Shown here piece by piece: positions 728-45,295 of a stretch of 64,000 nt of DNA (within the stretch, counting starts at the first letter, position 1; every line of letters starts with the position of its first letter). The notes under the pieces were generated by a model. It was not told the DNA's origin and searched no databases. It was given only the letters and a program-made list of their open reading frames with translations. Source of the DNA: a virus; the IMG/VR virus record IMGVR_UViG_3300040759_000032, positions 62,001-126,000 of that record; one strand, 5' to 3'. The position numbers were made by a program, and so were the translations under genes.

Positions 728-734
728 GCTCGTC

Positions 735-1885: not shown

Positions 1886-1902
1886 GGCCGCCCGGCAGGG
1901 AG

Positions 1903-2157: not shown

Positions 2158-2198
2158 GATCGGTTCCTCTCGTCGCGGTTCTGCTGGCAGGCAAAAGG

Positions 2199-4634: not shown

Positions 4635-4649
4635 TCGCACTCCCTTCGG

Positions 4650-4694: not shown

Positions 4695-4778
4695 GCCGAG
4701 CCGGGCGAGCAACTCACCCACTCAAGCCTCGCCCGCCGATCGCGGCGCCTCCCGGGTCGCTAGCGCCAGCCGCGCCGG

Positions 4779-5009
4779 TCAGTGAAGCCGGTCAACCCGC
4801 TCGACCGTGATCACATCCTCGTCTACCGCGTACAGGACCCGGTAGGGGCCGACCCGGAGCCGGTGGTAGCCGCCACGGTGGAATCCCTCAGCCGGGAGCG
4901 GGTCCTCGGCCAGCGCCTCGATAGCCGCGTCGACTGCGCGCATCCCGGGCTGGTCGCGCATGTACCGGCGGGCGGACGCGAGCGCGCCCGCCGTCCACTC
5001 GACCGTCAC
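4779..5009 (-). CDS. RelE/ParE-type toxin
   Basis: A 76-residue protein from GTG at 5009, overlapping the antitoxin stop (GTGA). It matches the RelE fold: an N-terminal helix pair, a central GGYHRLRVGPYRVLYAVDED stretch and a terminal beta strand (VITVERVDRLH). RelE toxins cleave mRNA in the ribosome; ParE relatives act on gyrase. The basic RLRVGPYRVLY strand and C-terminal Arg/His fit a RelE role. In the usual order it follows its antitoxin. Confidence 0.85.
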   Translation of the reverse strand: MTVEWTAGALASARRYMRDQPGMRAVDAAIEALAEDPLPAEGFHRGGYHRLRVGPYRVLYAVDEDVITVERVDRLH

Positions 5010-24008: not shown

Positions 24009-24491
24009 ATGGAGAAGGACCAGCAGGCTTACGACCTGTTCCGCCGGGGCCTGTCGTACCGGCAGATCGCCTCGCAGCTGGACTGGAAGTCGCAGAAGTC
24101 CGCGTTCGAGGCCGTGCGCCGAGCCGCCCGCGACAACGCCGCCGACCCCCTCGAGCAGGCGGAGGCACGGCAGGCGTTCTACGACCGGCTGCAGGACTAC
24201 CGGCGGGCCGCCCAGCGGGTCCTGTCGACGCGGCACTACGTCACGACCCAGACGGGGAACCTCGCGCACGGACCGGACGGGAGCCCGCTCCTCGACGACG
24301 ACCCGGTGCTGCGGGCGCTGGACCGGCTCGTGAAGATCGACGACATGGAACTGCGGCTGCGGGACCTGTACCCGGCGGCGAAGTCCCGCGTCGAGGTGAT
24401 CACTGAGGACGTGGTCGACGCGGAGATGGCGATGCTGGCCAGGCAGGTGGCGGAGAACGATGCCCGCGCCGCTGATTCTGGCGCCGCCTGA
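24009..24491 (+). CDS. terS: Terminase small subunit (putative)
   Basis: 160 residues. The N-terminal HTH (YDLFRRGLSYRQIASQLDWKSQKSAFEAVRRAARD) suits DNA recognition. The rest is helical with LLDDDPVLRALDRLVKIDDMELRLRDLYPAAK, as in actinophage small subunits. It overlaps the large subunit gene by 32 bases, the expected order. Confidence 0.75.
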   Translation: MEKDQQAYDLFRRGLSYRQIASQLDWKSQKSAFEAVRRAARDNAADPLEQAEARQAFYDRLQDYRRAAQRVLSTRHYVTTQTGNLAHGPDGSPLLDDDPVLRALDRLVKIDDMELRLRDLYPAAKSRVEVITEDVVDAEMAMLARQVAENDARAADSGAA

Positions 24492-27400: not shown

Positions 27401-27531
27401 CGCAGTCGGCCCCGAAAGCCCCCGCCGTGCCGGAGGCCGCCCCGGACCCCGAGCCCCCTCCCGCCCCCCTCGATCCTGCTGCGGCGCTGAGGGCGGCCAG
27501 GACCGCGATGTTCCGCCAGCAGGGCCGCTAG
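24460..27531 (+). CDS. terL: Terminase large subunit with intein
   Basis: The frame codes 1023 residues, 563 after removal of a 460-residue intein (179-638). The N-extein has the ATPase part with a deviant Walker A (SIAPQEGKSQ) and IGIASYAQSLAEGFGRD. The exteins join as GRPLD-CLIIDDPFAD, rebuilding Walker B. The C-part has the INTRWHEDDLTGRML ATPase-coupling region and an RNase H-like nuclease with DCAFKDTKSSDF and HDDQVDTTSQAL. It packages DNA through the portal. ATG at 24460 gives the usual N-terminal length. Confidence 0.92.
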   Translation: MPAPLILAPPEKIRRLAELRARLREQEAERRKTEGPRWATPGELARAIDPATVQTPALDLIDEALVWAYSTPGARLAVSIAPQEGKSQRVTRVGSLWALSQDPETRIGIASYAQSLAEGFGRDIRNMIASNNGDEGTLDIGLRIAGDYGSARRWQLDGHRGGVVCVGIGSGLTGRPLDCIAGDSGIITPDGVVCAADLVKAETLPLVLSWNHGSRRAEWRQVEATRTIPGREIVEVRTAAGRVIRCTPDHRVYVAGRGYVPAADLRAGDRLVTSGASPDPVRRMRDGLHEVPVGPEEQQAGHAPLLHEGVPERVGQGGAHLRRLRRRLHADAMRSGQGRQERVHALVLLQGVLPGNPERRVRREEAVPDVRQAEASQRRPLRHAVLLRRVPPAVLHGVRGLRPLRRLIRDAALRAGEEAQARRERVLLPAVRPRRHRGDAHEGHVPGMRREDAAAVERPTVLLGRVPRSARGGNPDAPGPGVHVVRRGLPAEDRPDGILLPRVRRLRALRPDDRPRELPLRGRHQLRGLVPQDAPADHRAGRRSLRRLQDLPAADEVQAQRGPGREKLAARAPHQRDAGGQQAAEPDNALQDLPHDPPQVEGDAVSVVRRIRGERHTVYDLQVEGNRNFFADQVLVHNCLIIDDPFADAEQAGSAYYRDRVWDWWRSVGAPRLAPAAPAILINTRWHEDDLTGRMLAAEDGHRWRAINIPALADHKPELGQSDPLGREPGEWLTSARGRTPAQWEQIRIQAGSRVFASLYQGRPSPDQGNVWQRQWWRRYQEPLWSQHPTTPEAWLVHDADEVLISVDCAFKDTKSSDFVVMQTWARRGAMAYLVDQVRKRLSFTDTVTALLALIAKWPQASRKLIEDKANGTAVISSLKSKVPGLVPVNPTDSKYGRATAVAPFIESGNVLLPAAGVGLFDPSELIEEAAGFPNAAHDDQVDTTSQALAEMFLDGNGAAAWIAWAKRKAEAVATGHVAESQSAPKAPAVPEAAPDPEPPPAPLDPAAALRAARTAMFRQQGR
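24994..26373 (+). other. Terminase intein (splicing halves in the host frame)
   Basis: The intein begins at Cys (24994) with CIAGDSGIITPDGVVCAADL (block A). It has block B TPDHRVYVAGRGYVPAADLRAGDRLV and ends with block F/G (GERHTVYDLQVEGNRNFFADQVLVHN), followed by extein Cys at 26374. Between about 25285 and 26265 the host frame reads an Arg/Pro-rich sequence without family features. The +1 frame there encodes a zinc-ribbon HNH nuclease. No stop interrupts the host frame, so a continuous precursor can be made. Confidence 0.85.
25160..26380 (+). CDS. HNH endonuclease with six zinc ribbons, in +1 frame inside the intein
   Basis: In the +1 frame relative to terL, six ribbons of the form CxxC...CxxxC follow each other (CGGC/CTKAC, CEGC/CSKAC, CLTC/CSDEC, CAHC/CSQPC, CQGC/CSDEC, CTSC/CSREC). 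An HNH domain follows (LIIERDGGVCAACKTC, LLVHHINETPADNRPQNLITLCKTCHMIHH). The frame opens at a GTG (25106). TTG at 25160 has GGAAGAGAG upstream and is given as start. The last 40 codons overlap the intein C-terminal splicing block. It could be an independent homing nuclease or need frameshifting to join the intein. Confidence 0.75.
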   Translation: MKSAPPQAASSAALPTTASTSPDAATFPPLTCAPETVSSLPARVPILCGGCGTVFTRFRSALRNNKPGTPLYCTKACQNASAKVALTCEGCGGGYTRMRCEVDKAARNGFTRSFCSKACFLGTQSAEFAAKRPCLTCGKPRPRKEDRSDTRFCSDECRRQFFTASADCAHCGASFEMPRYELAKRRRRGGNVYCSQPCARAGIAVTLTKATCQGCGAKMPQPWNGRRYCSDECRAAHGAVTRTLPDQVCTSCGVVFRPKTGRTGYCSRECADSAHSARMTGPGNSHFVDGTSYADWFRKMRPLIIERDGGVCAACKTCPPPTRYKRNGVPAERSSLLVHHINETPADNRPQNLITLCKTCHMIHHKSKATPFPWFAAYAASATRCMTSKWKATATSLQTRYSSTTA

Positions 27532-27862: not shown

Positions 27863-30800
27863 ATGAGCGTCCGATCCCGAGCCGCCGTCCTCGACGCCCC
27901 GGCCGTCCAGGTCGCAAAGGTGTTCGGTCCGGGGGTCCCGCCGGCGATCCGGGCGGCCGAGGCCGAGGCGCAGATGACGCCGACGTCCCCGTTCGGCCCC
28001 GGCACGCCGATCGGCCCGTACGACGGGTACTCGCGGCAGCCGCGCAGCCAGAACTTCGTGACCGGGGTCAACATCTCGACCCGGCCGCGGACCCACGAGC
28101 GCGTCAGCTTCGAGACGCTCGTGGGATTGATAAACGCCTACGACATCGCCCAGATAGCCATCTGGCATCGCATCGACTCCATTAGGTCGCTCGACTGGCG
28201 CCTCATTCCGGCCGCGCATTTCCAGGGCGACGCGACTGACGCCATCCGCATCGGGACTAAGGCGCTCAAGAAGCCGGACCGGATCAACTCGTTCAGCTCA
28301 TGGCTGGCGAAATGGCTATTCGACGTCCTCGCCTATGACGCGGGAGCGCTTTACCGGCTGCGGAACCGGGCCGGGCGCTGTATTGGGCTTCTCCCGGTTG
28401 ACGGCACGACGATCGCGCCGATGCTCGATTACTGGGGCAATCCGCCTGGCGCGATGGCCGCCCCCGGCGAGGAACTGCCCGAGGCGTTCGTCCAGTACGT
28501 CAACGGGCTGCCGTGGAACTGGCTGACGCTCGCCGATCTGGTCTACCAGCCGTTCCGGCCGCGCACCAACTCCCCGTACGGCCATGCGCCGCTTGAGTCG
28601 ATAATCCTCAACGCGAACACCGATATTCGCTTCCAGCTCTTTTTCCTTCAGCGTTTTACTGAAGGAAACATTCCGGAGGCGTTCGCCGCCGCCCCGGAAA
28701 CATGGTCCCCCGATCAGATAGAGCAGTTCCAGGAATACTGGGACGGCTTCATGTACGGCGACCAGTCGCGGAAGCACCAGATTCGGTGGATGCCCGGCGG
28801 CTCGAAATTCGCGTGGTCCAACGAGAAGGACTTCAGCGACACCTTCTCGCTGTTCCTGATGCGGAAGACGCTCGCCGCGTATCACACAGTCCCGGCCGAC
28901 GTCGGATTCACCGAAAACGTGAACAAATCGTCCGGCGAAAGCCAGGCTGACGTGCAGCACCGCGTCGGCGAGCTCCCTCTCGACGCCTATGTCGAGGCGA
29001 TCCTGACGGACTTCCTCCAAGACGACCTGGGCCTGCCGGTCGAGTTCGAGTTCGACAAGGGCGAGGAGCAGGACGACCGCCTCGCCGTCGCGCAAGCGCA
29101 CGAGATCTACATCCGCAACGCCGTGATCGGGGCGTCCGAAGTCCGCGAGGAGGTCTTCGGCCTCCCCGAGCCGGACGGCCAGGTCGTGCCCCGCGGGTTC
29201 TTCACCGAGCGTTCCGGGCTCATCCCGCTCAACTCGGTGCTCGCCGTCGCAGGGCCGATCGACCCCGCCACGGCCGCCCCGGAACCGGGGTCGCCCCTGC
29301 CGCACATGGTGTTCGGCGGCGTCGAGGGCGTGCTCCCCAACCCGCCGATCAAGGTCCCGAGCCTCGCCGAGCAGGAGTACGGGCCGTCGGCGATGCCGCC
29401 CGCCCCGCCGCCGCAGCCGAAGATGACCGACGCCGACGCGACCCCGGAACTGACTGCGGGCGCGGTCGCCAAGGAAGGCGAGGGCGCGGGCGGGAACGTC
29501 ACGGCGGGCATCACCGCGGCGACGGGCCTGTACTCCTACGACCTCGACGGCAGGGGCGGCGACGAGGACGAGGATGACGGCCCGGTCGGCCAGGCGGTGA
29601 TCGCGAAGGAGATGCAGGCGTTCCGCCGGTACTCAAGGGCGCGCAGGCGCTCGGGAGAGTGGCGGGACTTCGAGTTCCGGGCGGTCGCCAAGGTCGCCGG
29701 CCACAACCTGAACGACTCCGGCCGCCTCGCTGTCCGCAAGGACGCCGGGCAGGTGGCTGTCGCAGGGCTGGCTGTTCTCGCCGCGGACACAGGCCGCGTG
29801 CTGATGATCCAGCGGGCGCTTGACGACAGCGACCCTGCGGCCGGTACCTGGGAAGTGCCAGGCGGCCATCTGGAAGGCGCGGAGACGCCCCTCCATGGTG
29901 CGTGGCGCGAGTGGTCAGAGGAGTGCGGCGTAGCACCCCCGCCGGGCACTCAGACAGGCTCGTGGGCATCTCCGGACGGGATCTACCAGGGCATCGTGTG
30001 GACGGTCGACAGCGAGGCTCTCGTCCCGGTTCGCTCGGACACGCAGATCAGCAACCCCGATGACCCCGACGGCGACTCAATCGAGGCAATCGCCTGGTGG
30101 GACCCGGAGACGCTGCCGGGCAACCCGGCGGTGCGCCCCGAGCTGCTCGCGAACATCGATGACGTGATGGCCGCCCTCGGCTACGGCGTGACGGACGACG
30201 CCGAGGCGGAAGAGGTGGCCAAGGCGGCCGGTGGTTCAGGCCCAAAAGGGCCCGCCTGGCACGGGTGGACGCTCGACCGGAAGACGGCCGCGCACTGGGC
30301 CCCGAGGGTCCGCGACTCGGTTAAGGCGGCGGTCCCGAAGGCGAAGGCCCGCGACATGGGCCGTGACTACCTCGCTGATCACCCCGAGCAGGACGGGTCC
30401 GCCCCGGGCAAGCGGGACCGGAACAAGGCCGCCGCGGCGTGGGTCCTCGCCTGGCTGGCCAGCCACGGCATCACCCTCGTCCCGTCGTCGACGGCTGAGG
30501 CGATCGCGGTCGACGGGTACGCGATAGGCGCGGTCTCCGCTCAGCATCAGGTCACCGGGCAGCCGCCGGGGAAGACCGCTCCGGGCGGCCGGGACTCCGC
30601 CTTCGACCGGGTCGGGGAGGCCGGGCTGGCCGCCGAGCTCGCCCTGCTGCTGCGCGGAGGGAACGGCGCCGAGGCCGCCGCCGAGATCGTCGCTGAGGCG
30701 ATCGCCGGCGGGTACGCGAACGCGCTGGCGATCATCCTCGCCGGGACGGACGCGGACTGGGCGGACAGCCAGGACACCCTCGACGAGCTCGGGGACCTGC

Positions 30801-31075
30801 TGTCAGACGCGCTCGCCGACGAGGACACCGCCGTGACGCTCGTCGGGACGCAGATCAACATCTACACCGGGCTGTCAGCGCACGACTACTACATGCAGAA
30901 CAGCGTGACCCTGGTGAACTGGGTCACCGACCCGTCGAAGTCCGGCGTCTGCCCGGTCTGCGTGGCGAACGAGGCGGCAAGCCCGCAGACGAACGGGCAG
31001 CCCTGGCCCAGCGGGGACGTCTCGCCGCCAGCGCACCCGAACTGCCGGTGCCAGTTGCTTCCGGCGTGGCTCTAG
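27863..31075 (+). CDS. Portal-NUDIX-head morphogenesis fusion protein
   Basis: 1070 residues from ATG at 27863 after GGGGAGGG. Residues about 50-520 are a phage portal (VGLINAYDIAQIAIWHRIDSIRSLDW, LLPVDGTTIAPMLDYWGN, FRPRTNSPYGHAPLESII, MRKTLAAYHTVPADVGFTENVNKSSGE). Residues about 627-770 are a NUDIX hydrolase with the complete box GHLEGAETPLHGAWREWSEECGV. Residues about 780-1070 are an SPP1 gp7/Mu F-like head protein ending DPSKSGVCPVCVANEAAS...HPNCRCQLLP. VAK motifs sit at residues about 17, 533, 604 and 783, at domain borders. The portal gates DNA; the role of the NUDIX part is unclear. Confidence 0.88.
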   Translation: MSVRSRAAVLDAPAVQVAKVFGPGVPPAIRAAEAEAQMTPTSPFGPGTPIGPYDGYSRQPRSQNFVTGVNISTRPRTHERVSFETLVGLINAYDIAQIAIWHRIDSIRSLDWRLIPAAHFQGDATDAIRIGTKALKKPDRINSFSSWLAKWLFDVLAYDAGALYRLRNRAGRCIGLLPVDGTTIAPMLDYWGNPPGAMAAPGEELPEAFVQYVNGLPWNWLTLADLVYQPFRPRTNSPYGHAPLESIILNANTDIRFQLFFLQRFTEGNIPEAFAAAPETWSPDQIEQFQEYWDGFMYGDQSRKHQIRWMPGGSKFAWSNEKDFSDTFSLFLMRKTLAAYHTVPADVGFTENVNKSSGESQADVQHRVGELPLDAYVEAILTDFLQDDLGLPVEFEFDKGEEQDDRLAVAQAHEIYIRNAVIGASEVREEVFGLPEPDGQVVPRGFFTERSGLIPLNSVLAVAGPIDPATAAPEPGSPLPHMVFGGVEGVLPNPPIKVPSLAEQEYGPSAMPPAPPPQPKMTDADATPELTAGAVAKEGEGAGGNVTAGITAATGLYSYDLDGRGGDEDEDDGPVGQAVIAKEMQAFRRYSRARRRSGEWRDFEFRAVAKVAGHNLNDSGRLAVRKDAGQVAVAGLAVLAADTGRVLMIQRALDDSDPAAGTWEVPGGHLEGAETPLHGAWREWSEECGVAPPPGTQTGSWASPDGIYQGIVWTVDSEALVPVRSDTQISNPDDPDGDSIEAIAWWDPETLPGNPAVRPELLANIDDVMAALGYGVTDDAEAEEVAKAAGGSGPKGPAWHGWTLDRKTAAHWAPRVRDSVKAAVPKAKARDMGRDYLADHPEQDGSAPGKRDRNKAAAAWVLAWLASHGITLVPSSTAEAIAVDGYAIGAVSAQHQVTGQPPGKTAPGGRDSAFDRVGEAGLAAELALLLRGGNGAEAAAEIVAEAIAGGYANALAIILAGTDADWADSQDTLDELGDLLSDALADEDTAVTLVGTQINIYTGLSAHDYYMQNSVTLVNWVTDPSKSGVCPVCVANEAASPQTNGQPWPSGDVSPPAHPNCRCQLLPAWL
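28642..28668. repeat. AT-rich perfect hairpin inside the portal gene
   Basis: TTTCCTTCAG (28642-28651) pairs perfectly with CTGAAGGAAA (28659-28668) over a 7-base loop (CGTTTTA). It lies in a locally AT-richer part of the gene. Confidence 0.55.
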
Positions 31076-31605
31076 CCCATCCCGGCCAGCATCGACGGCG
31101 TGAGCGCCGTGCTGGCGATCAGGAGCTTCTGCCCGCCGGGCCGGTTCGGGATGTGCTCGGAGCACACTTCGGTGCCGCCGACCATGGTGACGGCTACGGT
31201 CAGGGGCGGCATTCCCTCCGCCCCGCCGAGCTGCAGCCGCTCGGGCAGGAACGGCGCGGGGTCGAGCTGGGCGAGGCGCGGGTCGCCGTCCGCGAGCTCG
31301 AGGCCGTGCGCCTGCGCGGCCTTCGCGAGCGCGATCTTGATGTCCCGCTCGTGGAGCATCTGCCAGCCCATCCGGGCGACGACGCACTGGGCGCACAGGT
31401 GCTGGCGGGTCTGGATAGGCACCTGCTGGAGAACCTGCTGCAGGACCCCGGCGATGGCCTGCGGGAGCTGCGGCAGCATCCCGGCTATCGCGGCGGCGGC
31501 CTGGGCGGTCTGCTGCGCGGGAGTCGGGGAGCCGTTCGCGGAGCCGTTGAATGCGGCGGGGGCGGCCGGGGGAAGTTCGGCGGGGCTGTCGGTCATGGGT
31601 TTCAT
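31072..31605 (-). CDS. Hypothetical protein, 177 aa
   Basis: Leftward gene convergent with the portal fusion, overlapping it by 4 bases. An Ala/Gln-rich N-terminus (QQTAQAAAAIAGMLPQLPQAIAGVLQQVLQQV) is followed by HLCAQCVVARMGWQMLHERDIKIALAKAAQAHGLE, then a beta-rich end with LTVAVTMVGGTEVCSEHIP. ATG at 31605 is given; a second Met follows at codon 4. Family not recognised. Confidence 0.65.
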   Translation of the reverse strand: MKPMTDSPAELPPAAPAAFNGSANGSPTPAQQTAQAAAAIAGMLPQLPQAIAGVLQQVLQQVPIQTRQHLCAQCVVARMGWQMLHERDIKIALAKAAQAHGLELADGDPRLAQLDPAPFLPERLQLGGAEGMPPLTVAVTMVGGTEVCSEHIPNRPGGQKLLIASTALTPSMLAGMG

Positions 31606-31634
31606 TATCGCGAACAGAGGCGAATGGGAGTGAC

Positions 31635-31916
31635 GTGGCTCTGACGCGGCTCTGCCCGTTCTGCCTGCTGCCCGCCGCGACGGAATGCATCTGCACTGAC
31701 GTCGAGACCCGCGCCACCGTCCCCTCCTGCTGCGACCTTCATGGCCCGGCCTGCGAGCCCGGCGACCCTTGCTGCGCAGACTGCACCGAGGAGCACCACG
31801 GCGCGTGGATTGACGCCCGCGGCGTCCGCCGCACCGGGCACCCGCCCGGCGAGACGTGCTCAGCCCCGGACGCGCCCCCTCCGCCTGGCGTCGGCCCCGA
31901 CTGGAGGCTCGCTTGA
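31635..31916 (+). CDS. Cys-rich small protein, 93 aa
   Basis: GTG at 31635 with GGGAG 4 bases upstream. CPFCLLP, CICTD, CCDLHGPACEPGDPCCADCTEEHHG and ETCSAP give a dense zinc- or metal-ligand pattern. Accessory gene between head genes. Function unknown. Confidence 0.6.
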   Translation: MALTRLCPFCLLPAATECICTDVETRATVPSCCDLHGPACEPGDPCCADCTEEHHGAWIDARGVRRTGHPPGETCSAPDAPPPPGVGPDWRLA

Positions 31917-32239
31917 GCGAGAACGACGAGCCCGGCGACTACCGGGGCGTGATCATCATCGAGTGGCCTCCTCGCGGCCCGAGCCCGTACCACGCCATGG
32001 ACGGCTGGCAGTCCCTGTTCCTCGACGCGGTGACCGGGAAGCCGATCATGACCGTGTCCGAGGCGGACGTCATCGTGCACACGGGCGCGGAGAGCCGCGT
32101 CACGGCCACCCTGACGATGTTCGCCGACGAGGCGGGCGACCCCATCCTCGAAGGCCTGCCGGTCGTCAGAGACGGCGAGATCCTGACGGGGACGTTCCCG
32201 TTCGCCGTCAGCGAGATGCGGGTCCGGCCCAAGTCCTGA
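31913..32239 (+). CDS. Hypothetical protein, 108 aa
   Basis: TTG at 31913 has GGAGG 5 bases upstream and overlaps the previous TGA, so this rare start was preferred. The protein is beta-rich (GVIIIEWPPRG, MDGWQSLFLDAVTGKPIMTVSEADVIVHTG, VTATLTMFADEAGDPI). Role unknown. Confidence 0.6.
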   Translation: MSENDEPGDYRGVIIIEWPPRGPSPYHAMDGWQSLFLDAVTGKPIMTVSEADVIVHTGAESRVTATLTMFADEAGDPILEGLPVVRDGEILTGTFPFAVSEMRVRPKS

Positions 32240-32338
32240 CGGGCGGCCGGCGGCCAATTCCTTCCGGCCGCTTGCAACAGTGCGCCTGCTTCGGGTGTCA
32301 GGACATCACGGCACGGAAGGCGCATAGGCCGCCCGTCA
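32237..32338. repeat. Long-range inverted repeat
   Basis: TGACGGGCGGCC (32237-32248) and GGCCGCCCGTCA (32327-32338) are perfect inverted copies separated by 78 bases without a gene. They may form a stem enclosing a structured RNA or mark protein-binding sites. Confidence 0.4.
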
Positions 32339-32359
32339 GCCAGGAACGGTAGCGTGGGC

Positions 32360-32394
32360 GGACAACCTGACAACCCACCGGACAACCTGACAAC
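32360..32394. repeat. Direct repeat GGACAACCTGACAAC x2
   Basis: Identical 15-bp units at 32360-32374 and 32380-32394, period 20 bp, about 20 bases before the 32414 start. A candidate operator or promoter element; only two copies are present. Confidence 0.5.
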
Positions 32395-32413
32395 GGAAGG
32401 CTGAGCGAATCTC

Positions 32414-32743
32414 GTGAAGATGGCCGAGTGGACCGGGCTGTGCGAGCGCGAGGCGGAGCGGGGCGGCGAGGTGATCGCCGTGACCCTCACCAGGGCCAGC
32501 ATGCAGGAACTGGCCGGCGACGTCCTGCGCTCGGCGAGCCTCGGGGAGATCGACTTCACCGACCAGGACGGCAACCCGAGGCCAGGCCCCGATGTCGCGG
32601 CCTGCGGAGCCCGGATCGGGCAGATGTACAACGTCGCCGCCGGTCGCAAGGAAGTCGACTTCACCCCTCTCGCGGACGCTGACACCATCACCGTGCGGGA
32701 CGCGGACGGGCAGACTCGCGTGATCGCGCTCGCCGCCGCCTGA
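32414..32743 (+). CDS. Hypothetical protein, 109 aa
   Basis: GTG at 32414 (an ATG two codons later is possible). Soluble alpha/beta sequence with VIAVTLTRASMQELAGDVLRSASLGE and TITVRDADGQTRVIAL. Its stop overlaps the next ATG (TGATG). Family not recognised. Confidence 0.6.
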   Translation: MKMAEWTGLCEREAERGGEVIAVTLTRASMQELAGDVLRSASLGEIDFTDQDGNPRPGPDVAACGARIGQMYNVAAGRKEVDFTPLADADTITVRDADGQTRVIALAAA

Positions 32744-33105
32744 TGTGCTCCTGCCCCGGTGACTGCGAGGGCGCGCCGGAGTGCCTCGACGACGAGGGCG
32801 GCCCGCTCCTCGACCTGGACAAGCCCTGCCCGCACGAGGACTTCGAGGCCGACGTCGAGGTCAACCGGCTGACCGGCGACCCGGACGGCCCTGTGACCGC
32901 CTACTCGGCTGACATCCGCATCCGGTGCGCGCAGTGCGGCGAGCCGTTCCGGTGGATCGGCGTCCAGGCCGGGCTGAAACCGGACCGGCCGATGGTGTCG
33001 GTCGACGAGACGGAGCTTCACGCGCCCCTACGGCCTGCGTCGTCCGACCCTGATTTCGGGCTGGGGATACCAGGGTTCGCCGTGACCTGGACGGAAGCGC
33101 CGTGA
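32743..33105 (+). CDS. Hypothetical protein with Cys clusters, 120 aa
   Basis: ATG at 32743. N-terminal CSCPGDCEGAPEC and central CAQCGEPFRW suggest metal binding. The middle is beta-rich (FEADVEVNRL, TAYSADIRIRC). Coupled to both neighbours by overlaps. Confidence 0.6.
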   Translation: MCSCPGDCEGAPECLDDEGGPLLDLDKPCPHEDFEADVEVNRLTGDPDGPVTAYSADIRIRCAQCGEPFRWIGVQAGLKPDRPMVSVDETELHAPLRPASSDPDFGLGIPGFAVTWTEAP

Positions 33106-33356
33106 GCCGGGCCTACTGCTGCGAGGTCTGCGACACCGATGACCCGCACTGGGTGATCGAGCGCCACGGCGACGCGGTTGTCACCTGGGCGTGCGACACC
33201 GACCTGGCCGAGGTCTGCGAGCGGCTGCAACGCGGCGGCGAGGTCACCAAGCTGTCGGTCAGGGACGCCCGCAAGGCGCGCGAGTGGGCGGGCGTCACCC
33301 CGCTCAACGCTGTCTCCGACCCCTTCGCGGACAAGGCGGCGCAGAGGGGCGGCTAG
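33102..33356 (+). CDS. Hypothetical protein, 84 aa
   Basis: GTG at 33102 overlaps the previous stop. CCEVCDTDDPHW at the start and AVVTWACDTDLAEVCERLQRGGEVTKLSV give a small alpha/beta domain. Last rightward gene before a five-gene leftward island. Confidence 0.6.
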   Translation: MSRAYCCEVCDTDDPHWVIERHGDAVVTWACDTDLAEVCERLQRGGEVTKLSVRDARKAREWAGVTPLNAVSDPFADKAAQRGG

Positions 33357-33433
33357 CGCGGCCACCGGAGGCCAGCCGGTGCGAGGGGCTGTCTGCAACG
33401 CTCGTTGCGGGCCTGCTCGCCGCGCGGTCAAGG

Positions 33434-33859
33434 CTACCGGAACCACGTCCGCCCGTCCCGGTGCCACGTCCCCTCCGGATGAGGCTCAAGCTCGCACCTG
33501 AGCGGCGTCGGGCCCTGCGCCGGGTCGAAGTACACGGCCTGGCTCGGATGCACGGGGATCCGGTTCATGATCAGCTCGTTCCGGAACGCGACCTTGACCG
33601 ACTCGTCAGGCGCGAACAGGACGGCCTGGCAGAACGGGTCCGGGGGGAGTGCCGCGCGGGCCGCGTACTCGTCGGACTCCCGCGCCGACGGCCACCTCCC
33701 CGCCGCCCATAGCTCGTCAAGCCACCGTTCGAACTGGGCCAGCGTCAGCGTCCCCGCAGGTGCGGTGATCTCCGGGTCAGGCGGGACGGGGTACCTCGCC
33801 GCGAAGTCCGCCCGCACGGCGCCGGCGATCGCGGTGAAGAAGTCGTCCCAGTCGGTCAC
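33434..33859 (-). CDS. Hypothetical protein, 141 aa
   Basis: GTG at 33859 overlaps the upstream stop. WDDFFTAIAGAVRADFAARYP and LAQFERWLDELWAAGRWPSARESDEYAARAAL are helical. The end has beta strands (QAVLFAPDESVKVAFRNELIMNRIPV). Last gene of the leftward island. Function unknown. Confidence 0.6.
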   Translation of the reverse strand: MTDWDDFFTAIAGAVRADFAARYPVPPDPEITAPAGTLTLAQFERWLDELWAAGRWPSARESDEYAARAALPPDPFCQAVLFAPDESVKVAFRNELIMNRIPVHPSQAVYFDPAQGPTPLRCELEPHPEGTWHRDGRTWFR

Positions 33860-34260
33860 GGGCTCGCCGCCTTTACTCGCCCCGTCACCGGGCTGACGTG
33901 CGGAGCCCACTCCCGCCTGTACCCGCCCCTGAACCTGTAGCCGTGACCGAGCAGGCAGAGAGTCTCGCACCAGCCGTCGGGACGGACGTCCGCGTACCCG
34001 TCGGGGTCGCTCATCTCATGGCACTGCGTGCAGCCGAAGTCGAACGGCGTCCCGTACGCCCCGGTCCTCGTCGGCGCATGCTTGTGCTCCCGGATGATCG
34101 CGAGCTCGGCGCGGCACCGGTCCACGCGCTCCCGCGCCTCGAAGTAGTGGAAGTCCCCCTCGCGCTCCCTGCTGAGCTGATAGGCCGCCTTGAGCTCGCG
34201 CCACCTGCGCAGGTCCGCCTCGATCTTGGGCCGCAGCCACGCCGCCAAGTCGCCGCTCAC
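33856..34260 (-). CDS. Helical protein with CxxCH, paralogue of 34257 gene
   Basis: 134 residues from GTG at 34260 with GGAAG upstream. The N-terminal helix AAWLRPKIEADLRRWRELKAAY and the LGHGYRFRGGYRREW end are shared with the upstream gene (VPWLRGTIEADLSRWRAREEAY, LGHGYRFRAGYDARAW). That shows a tandem duplication. It has FGCTQCHEMSD in the middle. Confidence 0.65.
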   Translation of the reverse strand: MSGDLAAWLRPKIEADLRRWRELKAAYQLSREREGDFHYFEARERVDRCRAELAIIREHKHAPTRTGAYGTPFDFGCTQCHEMSDPDGYADVRPDGWCETLCLLGHGYRFRGGYRREWAPHVSPVTGRVKAASP

Positions 34261-34571
34261 GGCTTCCAGGCCCTCGCGTCGTAGCCGGCCCTGAACCGGT
34301 AGCCGTGACCGAGCTGCCGCGCCACGATGCGCAGCACTTCCGCCTGCTTCAAGGGCTTGCCCTCCGCTCGCTCCCATGTCTCCGCCAGGTCATGGAAGTC
34401 AAGGACCGCCAGCCCCGCCTCGCACCGGGCTATCTGCTCCCTTGCCTCGAAGAGCGCCTCGTGGCGTCCGCGCCGGCTGCTGGCCAGGTATGCCTCTTCA
34501 CGGGCACGCCACCTGCTCAGGTCCGCCTCGATCGTGCCGCGTAGCCACGGGACCAGCTCGTCACTCGCCAT
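34257..34571 (-). CDS. Helical protein, 104 aa, paralogue of 33856 gene
   Basis: ATG at 34571. It has a coiled-coil-like N-terminus (ASDELVPWLRGTIEADLSRWRAREEAYLASSR) and the shared RIVARQLGHGYRFRAGYDARAW ending. This N-terminal pattern is frequent in DUF6221-like actinophage proteins. Function unknown. Confidence 0.65.
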   Translation of the reverse strand: MASDELVPWLRGTIEADLSRWRAREEAYLASSRRGRHEALFEAREQIARCEAGLAVLDFHDLAETWERAEGKPLKQAEVLRIVARQLGHGYRFRAGYDARAWKP

Positions 34572-35049
34572 CGGCCACCCACTCGAAGCACATCTCGTCA
34601 GGCAGATCCCCGGCGAACCGCTCGTTGACCAGATCCGTGACCTCCGGCACGAACGCGCGGGCATGGGCGAGCGCATCGCCGAACGCTTCCTTCAGGTACA
34701 TGCAGCCGACCGCGGCCTCGGCGCAGCCGGACCGCTGGCAATGCCACCCCCAGGACCACGGGGAAGTCTTCCGGAGGCGGGGCCGGTGCACCTCAGCCAC
34801 GAGCCCGAGCCGCCGCCTGACCTCCTCGATCCACTCGCGGCGGTCCCGGACCTCGGCCGCCCGCTTCTCCGCCGCGAACGCTTCCCGGATCACCAGCGAG
34901 TTGCGGAGCGGCGAGAAGTAGATCGGCCTGGGGTGCTGGCCGAGCATCTCGCTCTTCAGGTCAGCGCGCGTCACCCAGCCGCGCCGGATGAGCGCCTCCG
35001 TCGCCCGTTCGTACCGCTCGCGGGCCTCCGCGTGGATGTCATCGCTCAT
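34561..35049 (-). CDS. Hypothetical protein, 162 aa
   Basis: ATG at 35049 overlaps the upstream TGA. Helical start (HAEARERYERATEALIRRGW), PRPIYFSPLRNSLVIREAF, a basic helix, and a CQRSGCAEAAVGCMYLKEAFGDALAHARAF segment with Cys. Co-transcribed with the island. Unknown function. Confidence 0.6.
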   Translation of the reverse strand: MSDDIHAEARERYERATEALIRRGWVTRADLKSEMLGQHPRPIYFSPLRNSLVIREAFAAEKRAAEVRDRREWIEEVRRRLGLVAEVHRPRLRKTSPWSWGWHCQRSGCAEAAVGCMYLKEAFGDALAHARAFVPEVTDLVNERFAGDLPDEMCFEWVADGE

Positions 35050-35348
35050 CTTCCGAGCCCCTCGATGACGTGATCATGCTCCGCGCAGTACAGCACCGCG
35101 CCGCCGTGGTCGCCCGTCTGCTGCTCGGCTAGCCAGCGGTCGAGTTGCAGGTCCCCCTCGCGCGGGCAGCCGTCCTTGTGCACGTACGGCGCCCTCCCGT
35201 CGGTCCGGTAGCTGCCGCAGTCAGGGCAGGCGCCCACCCGGTGCGGGTTCGCCTCCCGCACGGGACCGCGTGGGATCAGGTCCCGAAACGGATTGCCGGA
35301 CGGCTGGCAGTCCGGGCCGATGTCGAACGGGATCAGTTCCTCGCTCAC
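35046..35348 (-). CDS. Zinc-ribbon-like protein, 100 aa
   Basis: GTG at 35348 chosen because the longer frame becomes Arg/Gly-rich. Segments CPDCGSYRTDGRAPYVHKDGC and LYCAEHDHVI give possible zinc sites. First gene of the leftward five-gene island and divergent from the protease gene. Confidence 0.6.
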   Translation of the reverse strand: MSEELIPFDIGPDCQPSGNPFRDLIPRGPVREANPHRVGACPDCGSYRTDGRAPYVHKDGCPREGDLQLDRWLAEQQTGDHGGAVLYCAEHDHVIEGLGR

Positions 35349-35374
35349 CCGCCCATTCTCGCGGAGGTGAGGCG

Positions 35375-36031
35375 ATGGTCGGCGCGCCGAGCCTCCTCGG
35401 ACCGTTCGGCGAGACCGACCGCCGGCAGCCGCACATGTACGCCCGCGACATCCGCTCTGACGCAGGGGCCTGCGTCTGCAAGGCCGACCCGTGGGACGGC
35501 GTGCACTCGGCGATCGCGCCCGGCCTCGGCGCGTCGGAGCTCGCCGCCGCGATCCGGAAGAGCATCGCCGGAGAGCCACGGGAGTTCGCCGACGACCTTA
35601 GGCGCGGCGTCGTCCGCCAGCTCGTCCCCGTCGCCAAGAGCGCCGAGAAGCAATTCCTGCTCGGCCTCGCCTACGTGGCCGGACGCGATCCGCGCATCCG
35701 CAAGGGCATGGACGGCGGCCGCGATTTCCTCGACCCCGAGGATCTCGAGCGCGCCTGCTGGAGTTTCCTCCCCGGCGGCGGCCAGGTCGGCATCGGCCAC
35801 ATCGACGGGACGCTCGGCCATCTGACCGTGACCGAGAACTACATCTACCGGGGCCCCGACTGGGAGCAGCCGTCCGGCCTGATCCTCAAGTCCGGCATGG
35901 CGTGGCTTATCGGGGGCCTTTGCGACGATCACGCCTGGCGGATGGCCAAGGCCGGGCACGTGAACGGGTTCAGCCCCCAAGGCGGGGGACGTCGGCTGCG
36001 GGTTCCGGCCATGGCGGGAGGTCTGTCGTGA
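35375..36031 (+). CDS. XkdF-like prohead protease
   Basis: 218 residues from ATG at 35375 with GGAGGTGAGGCG upstream. The C-terminal 100 residues (RDFLDPEDLERACWSFL, HIDGTLGHLTVTENYIYRGPDW, LKSGMAWLIGGLCDDHAWRMAKAGHVNGFSPQGG) match the XkdF/prohead serine protease family. It contains one VAK motif (LVPVAKSAEK). Its place before the scaffold and capsid genes fits. The catalytic Ser/His could not be fixed by eye. Confidence 0.8.
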   Translation: MVGAPSLLGPFGETDRRQPHMYARDIRSDAGACVCKADPWDGVHSAIAPGLGASELAAAIRKSIAGEPREFADDLRRGVVRQLVPVAKSAEKQFLLGLAYVAGRDPRIRKGMDGGRDFLDPEDLERACWSFLPGGGQVGIGHIDGTLGHLTVTENYIYRGPDWEQPSGLILKSGMAWLIGGLCDDHAWRMAKAGHVNGFSPQGGGRRLRVPAMAGGLS

Positions 36032-38277
36032 CGCTTCTCTCGGGCATTGACGATGACGATGAGTTCACCCAGCTCACAGACGTGAACACCCCGCGCGCGG
36101 ACATGGTTGGGGCCCCGGCTCACGGCTGGCCCGGCTGGCTCGTGATGAAGCAGGACGCCGAGGGCGCGCTGCTCGACCCGGAGTTCGTCCGGGACCTGCT
36201 CTCCAAGAACACCGACGAGGAGGCCCCCGTGCCCCAAGCAGCCGAGGCCGGGGAAACGGTCCTCCCGAACGGCATCACGCTCAAAGGCTCGTGGGCGGAC
36301 GTGGCCGCGTTCATCCACGCCGCGTCGATCCGCAAGGCGGACGGAAGCGAGTCGGAGCCCGGCGCGGGCGAGGTGGCCAAGGCCAAGAACGACACCGCCG
36401 ACCGGGAGAAGAAGGCCGCTTCCGGCGCCGCGATGCCCGACGGCAGCTACCCGATAGCCGACCGGGCGGACCTCGGCAAGGCCATTCACGCGGTCGGCCG
36501 GGGCGGCGCGAGCCATGACGCGATCCGCAAGCACATCATCTCGCGGGCCCGCTCGCTCGGCGCCTCCTCCGAGATCCCCGACAACTGGAACTCTGACGGC
36601 TCCCTCAAGGGCGACGTCGCCAAGGAGGCCGCCGTGCCCGCTGCCGTGACCAAGGACATGATGGACGCCGCCGGGGACGCGATGCCCCTCGACGACGGCA
36701 TGGACGGCATGGACCCGACGGTCCCGCTGGCGATGCCGGGCGACGAGATGGAGGTCCCCGGCGACCCGACCGACCCGGGCTCCCCGGCGTGGGAGGCGAT
36801 CGACGCGGCGACTGCGGCGAAGTGGCTGAGCATCGCCGCCCGGCTGAAGAACGCCCTCGGGATCCTCGCCGAGCGGGAGATGCTCGAGGCCGCCAGCGCC
36901 GACCCGTCCGACGCGGAGAACGCGTTCGACCTCGAGGACGCCGCCTGCGCCGTCGACTACGTCATCAGCACCCTCGCCGTGTTCGCCGCAGGGGAGATGG
37001 CCGAGGCCGAGCTCGGCGCGGAGATGGCCGAGATGTGCAAGGCGCTGGCCGCCTTCGACCCGGCCCCGCTCGGCGTGATCGAGGGCCTGACCGCGATCGC
37101 GAAGTCCGGCCGGGTCCTGTCGTCGGTGAACGAGAGCCGCATCCGGGACGCCTACGGGGCGCTCGGGGACGTGCTCGCCAGCCTGCCTGCGGCGCCCGCC
37201 GCACCTGACCAGCCGGTCGCCAAGGAAACGGAGGGCGCTATGCCCAACCACACAATCGATCTGCGGGGCAGGCAGCTGGCCCAGGGCTCCGCGGCGGACA
37301 CGCTCGCCCGCCCCGGCCCGGTCGCCAAGACCGCCATGTCCCCCGAGGACCAGGCCCGGAACACAGGCCCCGTGAACGCGGGCGGCACGACCGGCATGGG
37401 CCAGCCGCGCACGACCGGCCCCGATTCCGCCCTGCCCGGCGACGGCCCGCAGGACATGCGCCCCGGCGACGCCCCCGGCCGCCAGGTCGTCAAGGCCTCG
37501 CTCCAGGTCGCCGTCTACGGCCAGCCTCCTGGCAGGCTCCTCGGCCTCGCCCGTCCCGAGGCGATCGTCCAGCAGGTCGCCAAGGCCGACGGCGACGGCG
37601 ACGGGGACGGCAAGGTCCCCATGCAGGCCGTCTTCGACGAGAAGGGCAACCTCGTCGGCATCGTCGACCCGTCCGACATCACCCCGGTATCGGGAGCGGG
37701 CGGGTCCTCGAGTGACGACGGCGACGGCATGCAGGCCGGCCCCGCAGCAGCCGCCGCCCCGGCGGACGACATGACCCCGCAGCCCCCGGCCGAGGCGGGA
37801 ACCCCCGCCGACGCGGTCGGCAAGGCCGCGGACGAGAACGTGATCACAGCGCAGACCGCGGATCTCGACAGCATCATCGCGAAGGCAGTGGCGGCAGCGC
37901 TCGGCGCGGCCGCCCCGGCGGAGGACGTCGCCAAGCAGGCCGACGTCGCCGGGGCGCTCGCAGAGGTCGAGCTGCTCAAGGCCCGTCTCGCGAAGGTGGA
38001 GGAGACGCCCGCGGCGCCGAAGGTGTTCACCAACGGGGCGGTCCCCCCGGCGGAGCAGCTCCGCGGACAGGACCGGGGGCGCAACTCCGGCCAGATCGAT
38101 GTGGCCAAGGCGCTGGAGCGCCGCCACGAGCTCTACACCGCACCTGACGCCGGGACCCAGAACCAGATCGCCAAGTCGATGCAGGGTGACGCGATCGCCG
38201 CCCTCACCGCGATCTACGCGGCCGGGCCGAGCCCTGTCCGGGTGCAGCCCGCCCCCGTGCCGGCCGCCGCCCCGTAG
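36028..38277 (+). CDS. Scaffold-like head assembly protein
   Basis: 749 residues from GTG at 36028 with GGGAGGT upstream, overlapping the protease stop. Low-complexity Ala/Asp/Gly/Pro-rich segments alternate with helices. A GSYPIADRADLGKAIHAVGRG region (about 145-200) resembles the YPI-hydrophobic domain seen in phage head proteins. VAK-type motifs recur (GEVAKAK, GDVAKEA, QPVAKET, GPVAKTA, QQVAKAD, EDVAKQA, IDVAKAL). Likely a protease-processed scaffold preceding the capsid gene. Confidence 0.7.
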   Translation: MTLLSGIDDDDEFTQLTDVNTPRADMVGAPAHGWPGWLVMKQDAEGALLDPEFVRDLLSKNTDEEAPVPQAAEAGETVLPNGITLKGSWADVAAFIHAASIRKADGSESEPGAGEVAKAKNDTADREKKAASGAAMPDGSYPIADRADLGKAIHAVGRGGASHDAIRKHIISRARSLGASSEIPDNWNSDGSLKGDVAKEAAVPAAVTKDMMDAAGDAMPLDDGMDGMDPTVPLAMPGDEMEVPGDPTDPGSPAWEAIDAATAAKWLSIAARLKNALGILAEREMLEAASADPSDAENAFDLEDAACAVDYVISTLAVFAAGEMAEAELGAEMAEMCKALAAFDPAPLGVIEGLTAIAKSGRVLSSVNESRIRDAYGALGDVLASLPAAPAAPDQPVAKETEGAMPNHTIDLRGRQLAQGSAADTLARPGPVAKTAMSPEDQARNTGPVNAGGTTGMGQPRTTGPDSALPGDGPQDMRPGDAPGRQVVKASLQVAVYGQPPGRLLGLARPEAIVQQVAKADGDGDGDGKVPMQAVFDEKGNLVGIVDPSDITPVSGAGGSSSDDGDGMQAGPAAAAAPADDMTPQPPAEAGTPADAVGKAADENVITAQTADLDSIIAKAVAAALGAAAPAEDVAKQADVAGALAEVELLKARLAKVEETPAAPKVFTNGAVPPAEQLRGQDRGRNSGQIDVAKALERRHELYTAPDAGTQNQIAKSMQGDAIAALTAIYAAGPSPVRVQPAPVPAAAP

Positions 38278-38325: not shown

Positions 38326-38355
38326 TGCCATGCCCCCATGAAAGGAGGCACAGCG

Positions 38356-39849
38356 ATGACCGCACCCATGCAGAACGTCTCCGACGAGACCATCGCCCAG
38401 ATCCAGAAGGCGCAGACGGCCGGCATCTACGAGAGCACGGGCATCTGGTCCTATGACCTGTCCAGCCTGGTCAGCCTGATCCCCGTCGTCACGCCGTTCC
38501 GCGACATCGTCGCACGCGAGAAGTCGCCCGAGGGCAACCCGTACGCAATTTGGCGCGCCCTGATGAACGTCAACTCCTCGCAGCTCGACCCCAGCATGGG
38601 GATCGACTTCGCGGCGAACGAGGCGACGTTCGACGAGCAGGACTTCCAGGCGAAGTACGCCAGCACCGGCTACGCGGGCCTGGTGACGCAGGATGCGTTT
38701 GACTTCGGAACCGGATACGCAGATCCCTACGCAGTGGCAACTTTTCAAACACTTAATCAAGTGCTGATCGGCGACGACCGCAAGCAGCTCGGCGCGCAGA
38801 GTTTCGCCCTCGCGGCGGCGGCGGCCCCCTCGCTGACCACCGCCACGACCGGCGGCACCATCGCCGCGTCCACCCTCGTCTACGTCGGCGTCGCGGCCCG
38901 CACCGGCTCGGGCTTCTACTACGGCTCCGGCAACAGCCAGGGCAGCAGCGCGAGCGTCACCGTCGGCTCCACCACCAGCACCAACACGATCTCCGCCACG
39001 GTCACCGCGATCCGCGGCGCCGTCTGCTACGACTGGTTCCAGTCGAGCAACGGCGTCACCTGGTACTACTTCACCACGACCACGGTCAACGCGGTCACCA
39101 TGACCAAGACGATCGCCGCCAACCAGGCGCTCCCGACCACCGTCGCGGACCTGTCCCTGAACTGGAACGGCGTCGCCGGCGTCCCGACCTTCAACTCCGC
39201 GGCCGACAACGGCAGCGCGAACGCCAACGACTACGACGGCTTCCTCGCCAGCCTCAGCGGCGACTACTCCAGCACCGGCCAGTGGGTCAAGCCCGGCACC
39301 GGCACCGCCAACCCGTCGGTCTGGAACTCGCTCAACGGCGCCGCGCTGACCCTGACCGGCGGCACCATCACCGAGATCGAGGCGGACATCTTCGTCCCCC
39401 TGTGGAACCAGGTGAAGTGCAGCCCGACGGCCATCATGGTCAACGCAGCCCAGGCGCAGGAAATAGCCAACCTGATCCTCGGGTCCGGCTCGGCGACGAC
39501 CTTCCTGAACACGGACGCCTCGGGCCGTATCTCGGTCACCGCGGGCGGCCGGGTCGGGGAGATCGTCAACGCTCCTGCGGGCGGCGTGACGGTGCCGATC
39601 GAGGTGCACGTCAGCCTTCCGCCGGGCACGATCATCGGCCGCACGGACCGGGTTCCTTTCCCGCAGGCCAACATCAGCAACGTCATCGCCCAGCGCTGCC
39701 TGAGGGACACCGCGCAGTTCGATTACGGCATCGCGCGAGTGGCCGGTGTTAAAGGCGGAGGTCCGAGGCGTGAATTCGAAATCCGTTCCGTATCGAGCTT
39801 CGTCAATAGGGCACCAGTCGCCATGGCGACGTTGAGCAACGTGGCCTAA
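38356..39849 (+). CDS. Major capsid protein (HK97-like) with inserted domain
   Basis: 497 residues from ATG at 38356 with AAAGGAGG 7 bases upstream, an excellent site. The start (DETIAQIQKAQTAGIYESTG, VTPFRDIVARE) and end (NVIAQRCLRDTAQFDYGIARVAGVKGGGPRREFEIR) suit phage capsid proteins. A Thr/Ser/Val-rich stretch at about 155-290 (GTIAASTLVYVGVAART, SASVTVGSTTSTNTISATV, WYYFTTTTVNAVTMT) looks like an inserted Ig-like surface domain. Identification rests on size, place and pattern. Confidence 0.8.
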   Translation: MTAPMQNVSDETIAQIQKAQTAGIYESTGIWSYDLSSLVSLIPVVTPFRDIVAREKSPEGNPYAIWRALMNVNSSQLDPSMGIDFAANEATFDEQDFQAKYASTGYAGLVTQDAFDFGTGYADPYAVATFQTLNQVLIGDDRKQLGAQSFALAAAAAPSLTTATTGGTIAASTLVYVGVAARTGSGFYYGSGNSQGSSASVTVGSTTSTNTISATVTAIRGAVCYDWFQSSNGVTWYYFTTTTVNAVTMTKTIAANQALPTTVADLSLNWNGVAGVPTFNSAADNGSANANDYDGFLASLSGDYSSTGQWVKPGTGTANPSVWNSLNGAALTLTGGTITEIEADIFVPLWNQVKCSPTAIMVNAAQAQEIANLILGSGSATTFLNTDASGRISVTAGGRVGEIVNAPAGGVTVPIEVHVSLPPGTIIGRTDRVPFPQANISNVIAQRCLRDTAQFDYGIARVAGVKGGGPRREFEIRSVSSFVNRAPVAMATLSNVA

Positions 39850-45065: not shown

Positions 45066-45190
45066 ACCGGCCGGCCCCGCGCGTCAGGTACGCGGTCCCG
45101 GAAGAGAGGCAGCAACTGCACGGGCGACTCCGGCGCCGCCAGTGCCGGTTCGAGGTCGTAGGCGATGATTCCCGTCTGGTTCTCGCTCAT
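44801..45190 (-). CDS. Hypothetical protein, 129 aa
   Basis: ATG at 45190; the longer frame into the tRNA-like element was rejected. A beta-rich first half (IIAYDLEPALAAPESPVQLLPLFRDRV, GTVRVVLDSAGCNGEPADFQL) and a helical second half (REQYERWRSAKEAFGMMEDEIEKLTGERARLMHAQVRE). Unknown function. Confidence 0.6.
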   Translation of the reverse strand: MSENQTGIIAYDLEPALAAPESPVQLLPLFRDRVPDARGRPVYVPAQPPEGTVRVVLDSAGCNGEPADFQLHEEHSTTPQPHRVFDVPREQYERWRSAKEAFGMMEDEIEKLTGERARLMHAQVRERLR

Positions 45191-45210
45191 GCGGCCAATG
45201 CTAGACGCGG

Positions 45211-45295
45211 GCGGCCGGGCGGGAATCGAACCCGCGAGCCCGTGAGGGCACGACACTGCAGTTACCGCTGCCGTCTCCAGCATGGCGGCCGGCCG
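45211..45295 (-). tRNA. tRNA-like element (class II shape, abnormal anticodon arm)
   Basis: On the minus strand a perfect 7-bp acceptor stem (CGGCCGG with CCGGCCG), a D-arm GCC...GGC with GG in the loop, a variable-arm hairpin GCCC/GGGC and a canonical T-arm GCGGG-TTCGATT-CCCGC can be folded over 85 bases. No CCA is encoded. The anticodon arm folds only as GCAG/CTGC with a 6-base loop CGGTAA, lacking U33. GTA (Tyr) would be displayed if the loop were repaired. It may be degenerate or non-canonical. Confidence 0.5.

Follow-up and report, generated by a model that had tools for sequence, protein, structure and literature searches.

Head maturation proteases and enzyme-carrying head proteins have been described in several phages. 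The HK97 major capsid protein (MCP) is processed at K103/S104, within a segment that lacks structure, after which its N-arm takes up roughly the position of the scaffold (PMC10275583). In T4, gp21 breaks the core down into peptides, trims gpAlt among other packaged proteins and cleaves off its own N-terminus (PMC9958956). For SPN3US gp245, an A-x-E motif is found in the MCP, the portal, ejection proteins and the protease itself (PMC10052503), and Iyer et al. (2017) described fusions of portal or MuF proteins to enzyme domains, 2H among them, which they predicted to be packaged and injected (PMC5512222). Here we analysed a window of 64,000 nucleotides, positions 62001-126000 of the 132,427-base virus record IMGVR_UViG_3300040759_000032 (71% GC), whose head module encodes, on the + strand and in this order, a terminase, a portal fusion protein, a prohead protease, a scaffold-like protein and an MCP. 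By computation we found a motif that recurs at conserved positions in the portal fusion, protease, scaffold and MCP, a swap of the enzyme carried by the portal fusion and a copy of the MCP N-arm in the linker of this fusion. We think it quite likely that the motif, [V/I/L]-x-K followed by A, E, D, S or T, serves the S78_2 (XkdF-type) prohead protease as its cleavage code, and that this enzyme would cut after the lysine. Reading the sites as head-protease cuts draws on the analogy with HK97, T4 and SPN3US.

The portal-NUDIX-MuF-like fusion protein (1070 amino acids, 114.4 kDa) is encoded at 27863..31075 (+). Its open reading frame (ORF) is also open from a 5'-most GTG at 27764, and the ATG at 27863 was taken as the start throughout. 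The protein matched Pfam NUDIX (53.7 bits), PHROG portal phrog_2662 (3.8e-48) and Phage_portal (37.8 bits, slightly below the cut-off of 39.1), and its C-terminus gave weak PHROG head-morphogenesis matches; PF04233 was found in the MuF part of relatives. The S78_2 (XkdF-like) protease (198 amino acids; 35435..36031, +) is encoded between the portal and capsid genes and matched PF14550 at 27.9 bits (cut-off, 24). Its stop codon overlaps the start (GTGA) of the scaffold-like protein (749 amino acids; 36028..38277, +), after which comes the MCP (503 amino acids, phrog_13692; 38338..39849, +). Genes were called over the whole record with a GC3 heuristic. Relatives, given L numbers below, came from an IMG/VR portal-based scan (33), an MCP-profile scan (at least 80 loci) and a genome-contig scan (6, matching five Streptomyces or Kitasatospora genomes and one Catenulispora metagenome bin).

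The tripeptide VAK occurs 12 times in the portal fusion, protease and scaffold (2,018 amino acids) and 4 times in the 188 other called proteins (38,120 amino acids), which places 12 of the record's 16 VAKs in these three proteins. It is their most over-represented tripeptide (12 against 0.68 expected), and VAR was found 0 times in them and 17 times in the record's remaining proteins. The portal fusion contains 4 VAKs (0.26 expected; 4 was reached in a fraction of 0.00015 of the composition shuffles), the scaffold 7 (0.40 expected; 7 was reached in none of 20,000 composition shuffles) and the protease 1 (0.045 expected; shuffle fraction 0.044). A preliminary description of this DNA had noticed VAK at the domain borders of the portal fusion and had placed it at residues 17, 533, 604 and 783; it is indeed present at these borders, at residues 17, 535, 608 and 785. 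The same description had reported VAK in the protease, where it occurs once (VPVAK/SAEK, window 35630-35638, the slash marking the predicted cut), and at least seven times in the scaffold-like protein, where there are exactly seven copies (residues 116, 197, 397, 432, 517, 634 and 692). It had also held that VAK should exceed expectation when counted over the whole proteome and should not be equally frequent in unrelated proteins, as the counts above, which are higher than in shuffles, bear out. A DNA-level repeat as the source of VAK was ruled out for 11 of the 12 copies (the one in the protease was left out), because the DNA flanks are only 40% identical and three different synonymous codings are in use.

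In relatives, the motif takes the form [VIL]-x-K, and in most cases the next residue is A, E, D, S, T or G. In a count over 38 contigs, [VIL]xK[ASDETG] had 407 matches in scaffolds (19.9 per 1000 amino acids), and its frequency was 4.7 per 1000 in portals and 2.26 per 1000 in other genes (316 in 139,626 amino acids). L061 and L067 supplied only MCP and background to this count, and the scaffolds of L002 and L003 and the protease of L003 were left out of it. The version with arginine in place of the lysine was not enriched (4.55 per 1000 in scaffolds versus 5.49 in other genes), nor was that with a non-hydrophobic residue at the third position before the cut (P3; 7.2 versus 6.9), while the version with a hydrophobic residue at the wrong spacing was only slightly enriched (3.6 versus 2.5). 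Because these three versions were little or not enriched, the hydrophobic P3 residue and the lysine both matter. The window scaffold contains 20 [VIL]xK, including its 7 VAK. A strict form of the wider motif stood out in this scaffold (17 versus 2.1) and in the protease (4 versus 0.46), and with it no further substrate stood out among the 188 other called proteins (best shuffle fraction 0.074), 6 of which have at least two matches. We also took 27 distant contigs, 4 of which (L069, L074, L107 and L110) yielded no scaffold ORF; in L123, an overlapping second frame without matches was disregarded. The motif was enriched in 15 of the 23 scaffolds at a shuffle fraction of 0.05 or less, and the arginine version in none of the 23.

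The sites are unevenly distributed along the portal fusion. In 26 aligned portals, the N-terminus before the portal core contained 23 motifs (2.4 in shuffled sequences), with a site in 23 of the 26, and the linker between core and cargo contained 66 (11.0 shuffled), with sites in all 26. The portal core was depleted (17 versus 30.6 shuffled), the NUDIX region contained 4 (2.3 shuffled) and the C-part 41 (21.0 shuffled), with at least one motif in 25 of the 26 portals. In the window protein, the candidate sites are VQVAK/VFG at the N-terminus (residues 17-19; 27911..27919, +), GAVAK/EGEG at the border between portal and linker (535-537; 29465..29473, +), AVIAK/EMQA (580-582; 29600..29608, +), RAVAK/VAGH before the NUDIX domain (608-610; 29684..29692, +), LAVRK/DAGQ at the NUDIX edge (624-626; 29732..29740, +) and EEVAK/AAGG between the NUDIX and MuF parts (785-787; 30215..30223, +). 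VAKEMQAF or a similar sequence, matching site 580, is common in relatives, and AVRK[ADE] is found at site 624 in most of them. In the structural model of the portal fusion, whose mean predicted local distance difference test score (pLDDT) is only 65.0, sites 17, 535 and 785 fall in disordered stretches: the region of site 17 has a pLDDT of about 34, and segments 514-573 and 776-796, which contain sites 535 and 785, are below 50. Cutting would yield residues 1-19, 20-537 (56.9 kDa), 538-582 (4.4 kDa, pI 4.1), 583-610, a cargo fragment with the NUDIX domain (611-787, 18.5 kDa; 29693..30223, +) and a MuF-like head fragment (788-1070, 29.2 kDa; 30224..31072, +).

In the preliminary description, the motif was VAK and had not been noticed in the MCP. 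VAK is enriched as stated and its count in the MCP is 0, but restriction to VAK proved too narrow, and the MCP does contain the wider motif, as IQK/AQTAG here and IxK/AQTTG in relatives. The candidate site, QIQK/AQTAG, occupies residues 22-24 (38401..38409, +), and the mature MCP is predicted to start at A25 (AQTAG), with a mass of 49.7 kDa. An alignment of 47 MCPs, the most distant of which share 28% identity with the window MCP, has a lysine at the position of K24 in 44. All 44 have I, L, V or M at P3, and 43 have A, S, T, D or G next; as to the three exceptions, L078 and L110 have the motif nearby, unaligned, and L081 is devoid of it. Independently of the alignment column, [VILM]xK was found 5-13 residues before a conserved TG(L/I)xxYDL in 102 of 105 MCPs, and exactly 9 residues before it in 65. 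The AlphaFold2 model of the MCP (mean pLDDT 81.7, residues 1-50 of low confidence) places the site where a weak helix (16-28) ends and has an HK97 fold, as Foldseek matched it to SU10 (E 1.2e-10), HK97 (E 1.6e-7) and other capsids. In L081, the MCP is without the lysine site and the scaffold is without enrichment (3 versus 3.1). This is a co-loss of the two features, in a single lineage among the loci listed; the MCPs of L082 and L083 are the same as that of L081. One motif is thus common to the MCP N-terminus, the scaffold, the protease and the proteins predicted to be packaged.

The protease family, as collected with a hidden Markov model (HMM), comprises 52 ORFs. Most of them end in a sequence of the G-x-S-(P/I)-QG type, and the window protein has H-x-DGT, as do those of the Arthrobacter phages Mufasa8 and Sonali; these two motifs may contain the catalytic Ser and His. 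The candidate self-cleavage site VPVAK/SAEK (35630..35638, +) lies just before the protease domain. Comparable sites stand at the same place in several N-extended proteases, where VAK/SAEKQFLLG of the window corresponds to VAK/SGDEKRFLLG in L025, LAK/SAPEQKFIVG in L041, VCK/AAEPQRYVLG in L051, VVK/AAGEQRYTLA in L067 and IHK/ATAQEQRYVLG in L126. Several extended ORFs (e.g. L031, L037, L054 and L124), the start codons of which are uncertain, had no site in the stretch just before the domain. In L017 and L022, protease and scaffold form one ORF, with sites after the protease domain (RVQK/EGAVALAK/TS and RVAK/EGAVSIAK/SS, respectively).

Site 535 of the portal fusion directly precedes a copy of the MCP N-arm. 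The linker after this site reads TAGITAATGLYSYDLDG (residues 547-563; 29501..29551, +) and the MCP after its own site AQTAGIYESTGIWSYDLSSL, the core match being TGLYSYDL versus TGIWSYDL. In L014, the MCP has IAK/GSTTGITSQTGLFSYDLGDL and the portal VAK/DSEGGGPAMPTAGITSATGIYSYDLAGH. The window copy had a Smith-Waterman score of 53 (36 for the best of 60 shuffled arms) and an HMM score of 23.1 bits (8.5 for the best reversed decoy). When the MCP arm of each contig was compared with all upstream + strand ORFs, with 60 shuffled arms as control, the match exceeded all shuffled arms by at least 4 in 27 of 103 contigs, window included; in this set L048 repeats L019, and L079 and L080 repeat L078, and many of the contigs outside it are without a complete portal. 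For 24 non-redundant pairs of MCP and copy, the mean score was 50.3 with the own partner and 44.9 with swapped partners (fraction 5e-5 in 20,000 permutations), and the own copy ranked first of 24 in all five divergent cases examined (L005, L051, L054, L065 and L078). In L065, for instance, GLQGIDLTG of the MCP corresponds to GLEGVDLQG of the portal, and in THSA-485A (L005) the MCP sequence VASGLQMYNL is matched by VASGLSNYNL in the scaffold. This excess of similarity within own pairs could result from coevolution or repeated copying, and lineage structure accounts for part of it.

With a profile of the MCP arm, 41 non-MCP ORFs scored above the best reversed decoy (8.5 bits), 40 of which, on the + strand, were portal ORFs or the L078-L080 scaffold, and one of which was a minus-strand ORF of the window. 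The 36 non-redundant matches included 35 on the + strand (34 portals and one scaffold). All 35 had [VILM]xK 9-18 residues before TG, while 25% of the 30-residue stretches in the same ORFs contain [VILM]xK as background. The copy therefore reproduces both the site and the arm of the MCP. Weaker candidates were seen in scaffold ORFs of L073 and L105/L106, that of L105 being at the extreme N-terminus, and the THSA-485A scaffold copy reached only 1.6 bits with the profile, despite its close match to its own MCP. The minus-strand ORF of the window (44801-45283) has a likely start, MSENQTGIIAYDLEP, that resembles the MCP arm (11.7 bits), and this ORF possibly encodes a further small protein with an arm-like tag. 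Minus-strand ORFs with similar stretches are also present in L044, L045 and L051.

The cargo slot of the fusion, which joins an enzyme domain to portal and MuF parts as in polyvalent portal/MuF proteins, varies among relatives. According to Pfam, the slot in 26 portal-bearing ORFs holds a NUDIX domain in 18, a 2'-5' RNA ligase-like (2H phosphoesterase) domain in 5 (L011, L028, L032, L035 and L041) and neither in 3 (L060, L063 and L065). Comparison of the window protein with that of L011 in 25-residue blocks gave 76-100% identity up to about residue 550 and 84-92% at 801-900, versus only 20-36% at 626-775, where L011 has its 2H domain. This is a clean cassette swap, with edges near sites 608-624 and 785. 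The NUDIX box of the window protein looks intact by eye (GHLEGAETPLHGAWREWSEECGV). The L041 fusion (420-4520, +) has a 2H phosphoesterase domain and a MuF domain and, behind the latter, an ADP-ribosyltransferase domain at its C-terminus. The portal-fusion ORFs of some relatives contain intein-like insertions (LAGLIDADG, Hint or intein-splicing matches), all on the + strand (L035, 3755-9553; L037, 4853-9406; L030, 5038-7620).

As to mechanism, we propose that, as the head matures, the protease would detach its N-terminal extension from its own domain, fragment the scaffold at some 10-20 sites, shorten the MCP by a cut after K24 and split the portal fusion into the portal (about 57 kDa), a 45-amino-acid acidic linker peptide, the cargo enzyme (NUDIX here, 2H phosphoesterase in some relatives) and the MuF-like head part. 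With the fusion, each portal subunit would bring a single cargo enzyme into the head, where proteolysis would free it, and the freed cargo would probably be injected with the DNA. The linker peptide, as a copy of the MCP N-arm, may during assembly occupy the site of an MCP arm close to the portal vertex, or serve as a placeholder for the arm. More tentatively, and with considerable doubt, we suggest that the portal fusion may be a polyprotein with a swappable cargo slot, bounded by prohead-protease sites, and a full copy of the MCP N-terminus, cleavage site and arm included; once cut out, the peptide would dock at the MCP arm sites beside the portal, or keep them open until cleavage releases the true arms, and so couple portal and shell; the copy tracks its own MCP and is elsewhere found in the scaffold, as if it were a general attachment of inner head proteins. 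The idea, put forward in the preliminary description, that the motif is a cleavage signal is supported at the level of sequence, and we infer cutting from the specificity for lysine, the placement in linkers, the borders of the protease and the MCP site. The sequences conform to what a cleavage signal predicts: lysine is favoured over arginine and a hydrophobic residue is favoured at P3, motifs are concentrated in linkers and depleted from the portal core, sites are found at the borders of several N-extended proteases, at protease-scaffold junctions and at the borders of the swapped cargo, the MCP N-terminus has a conserved site, and most of the distant scaffolds are enriched.

Several points weigh against cleavage by the S78_2 protease or against the role proposed for the arm. 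The evidence for cutting, for the enzyme responsible, for injection and for the function of the arm is drawn from sequences, and several of the tests do not separate a cut site from a docking motif, for which the same sequence pattern is expected. In the portal fusion taken alone, the strict wider motif is borderline (4 versus 1.6, fraction 0.066), and across the aligned portals the C-part is only 2-fold enriched. Sites 580, 608 and 624 are less certain, because the model places site 580 in a predicted helix (574-597), site 624 at the end of another and site 608 in a confident region between two predicted helices. Among the distant scaffolds, 8 of 23 showed no clear enrichment. For the MCP, no relative was found in the PDB by sequence, and there is consequently no experimental N-terminus at hand; the conservation of K24 could instead be structural. 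The portals of L002, L003, L060, L063 and L071 yielded no arm copy.

Of the other explanations, the one that survives best, which we consider unlikely, is that the sites are cut by a host protease or another phage protease, or that only some of them (535, 785, MCP 24 and those of the scaffold) are real and the rest due to chance. The helical positions of 580 and 624 fit partial use, and the identity of the enzyme is inferred; yet the S78_2 gene has the portal gene on one side and the scaffold gene on the other, forms a single ORF with the latter in L017 and L022, and encodes a protein that itself carries the motif. We consider it quite unlikely that the motif is a short binding motif, never cut, by which the scaffold, the portal linker, the protease and the MCP N-terminus dock to a common head partner. 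Its presence in disordered linkers and in the N-arm region of the MCP would agree with such binding, and the arm copy indicates that mimicry of a binding type is possible in the same linker, but binding poorly explains the sites at the borders of N-extended proteases and at protease-scaffold junctions, those around the swapped cargo, or the match to lysine-directed cutting in HK97. A composition artefact, in which VAK would arise by chance in Ala/Val-rich disordered linkers of a 71% GC genome, is very improbable: the linkers are Ala-rich and the scaffold has 46 Lys per 1000 amino acids versus 27 in other genes, but the composition shuffles and the Arg and shifted controls contradict it, and the motif is conserved at fixed places across relatives.

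Some features of the neighbourhood deserve mention. Several small minus-strand ORFs (31072-35049) separate the portal and protease genes in the window, while in many relatives the protease gene lies directly 3' of the portal gene. The large terminase gene (24460-27531, +) contains an intein (PF14890, residues 220-638), and a 424-amino-acid HNH/zinc-finger ORF (25106-26380, +) is nested in it in another frame, the outer frame staying open. L033 has the same out-of-frame arrangement (terminase 1861-4932, HNH 2558-3862), with 92% identity.

If the motif is indeed the cleavage code of the S78_2-type prohead protease, a protease of this type would have a testable code, with a hydrophobic residue at P3 and a lysine directly before the cut (P1). 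Cleavage after lysine is easily missed, because trypsin also cuts there. Such processing would explain how a giant portal-enzyme fusion could coexist with a functional portal, and it would offer phages a natural slot in which to swap head-carried enzymes (NUDIX, 2H phosphoesterase), which are plausible early counter-defence effectors. Mimicry of the MCP arm may account for the way in which portal and scaffold hold on to the shell.

Among known systems, the locus resembles HK97 gp4/gp5 in having a protease in the head module and a predicted lysine cut before the N-arm (PMC10275583). It differs in that the HK97 scaffold is a domain of the MCP, while the scaffold here, with its some 20 motifs, is a protein of its own, and in that the portal fusion is a predicted substrate. 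The MCP has no N-terminal scaffold (delta) domain of about 100 residues; 24 residues precede the predicted cut, and the scaffold is encoded by a separate ORF. With T4 gp21, it shares the scheme of one protease with several head targets and self-activation (PMC9958956). In T4, however, the packaged proteins are separate gene products and not parts of the portal. The motif of gp21 is I/L-x-E. The Salmonella phage SPN3US gp245 is similar in that a short three-position motif is common to several head proteins; its motif is A-x-E, and the accessible part of the account describes cleaved propeptides and no portal-enzyme fusion (PMC10052503). In the accessible text on polyvalent portal/MuF proteins, neither prohead-protease sites between the domains nor a copy of the MCP arm is mentioned, and NUDIX domains figure as neighbours of InPase (PMC5512222). 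Mufasa8 and Sonali have the same gene order and a portal fusion, their scaffold contains [VIL]xK motifs (e.g. VEKAA), and their genes are annotated as portal ('portal and MuF-like fusion protein' in Sonali), capsid maturation protease, hypothetical protein and major capsid protein. They differ by their 60-61 kb genomes, by a portal identity of 37-39% and in that neither an N-extended protease nor an arm copy was detected in them. In the open-access literature, we found no published cleavage motif for an S78_2-type protease and no portal copy of an MCP arm. Thus, multi-target head proteolysis is a known kind of system, and what we would regard as new, by comparison with the open-access literature, is the predicted lysine code of this lineage, the portal polyprotein with a cargo slot bounded by the motif and, above all, the copy of the MCP arm.

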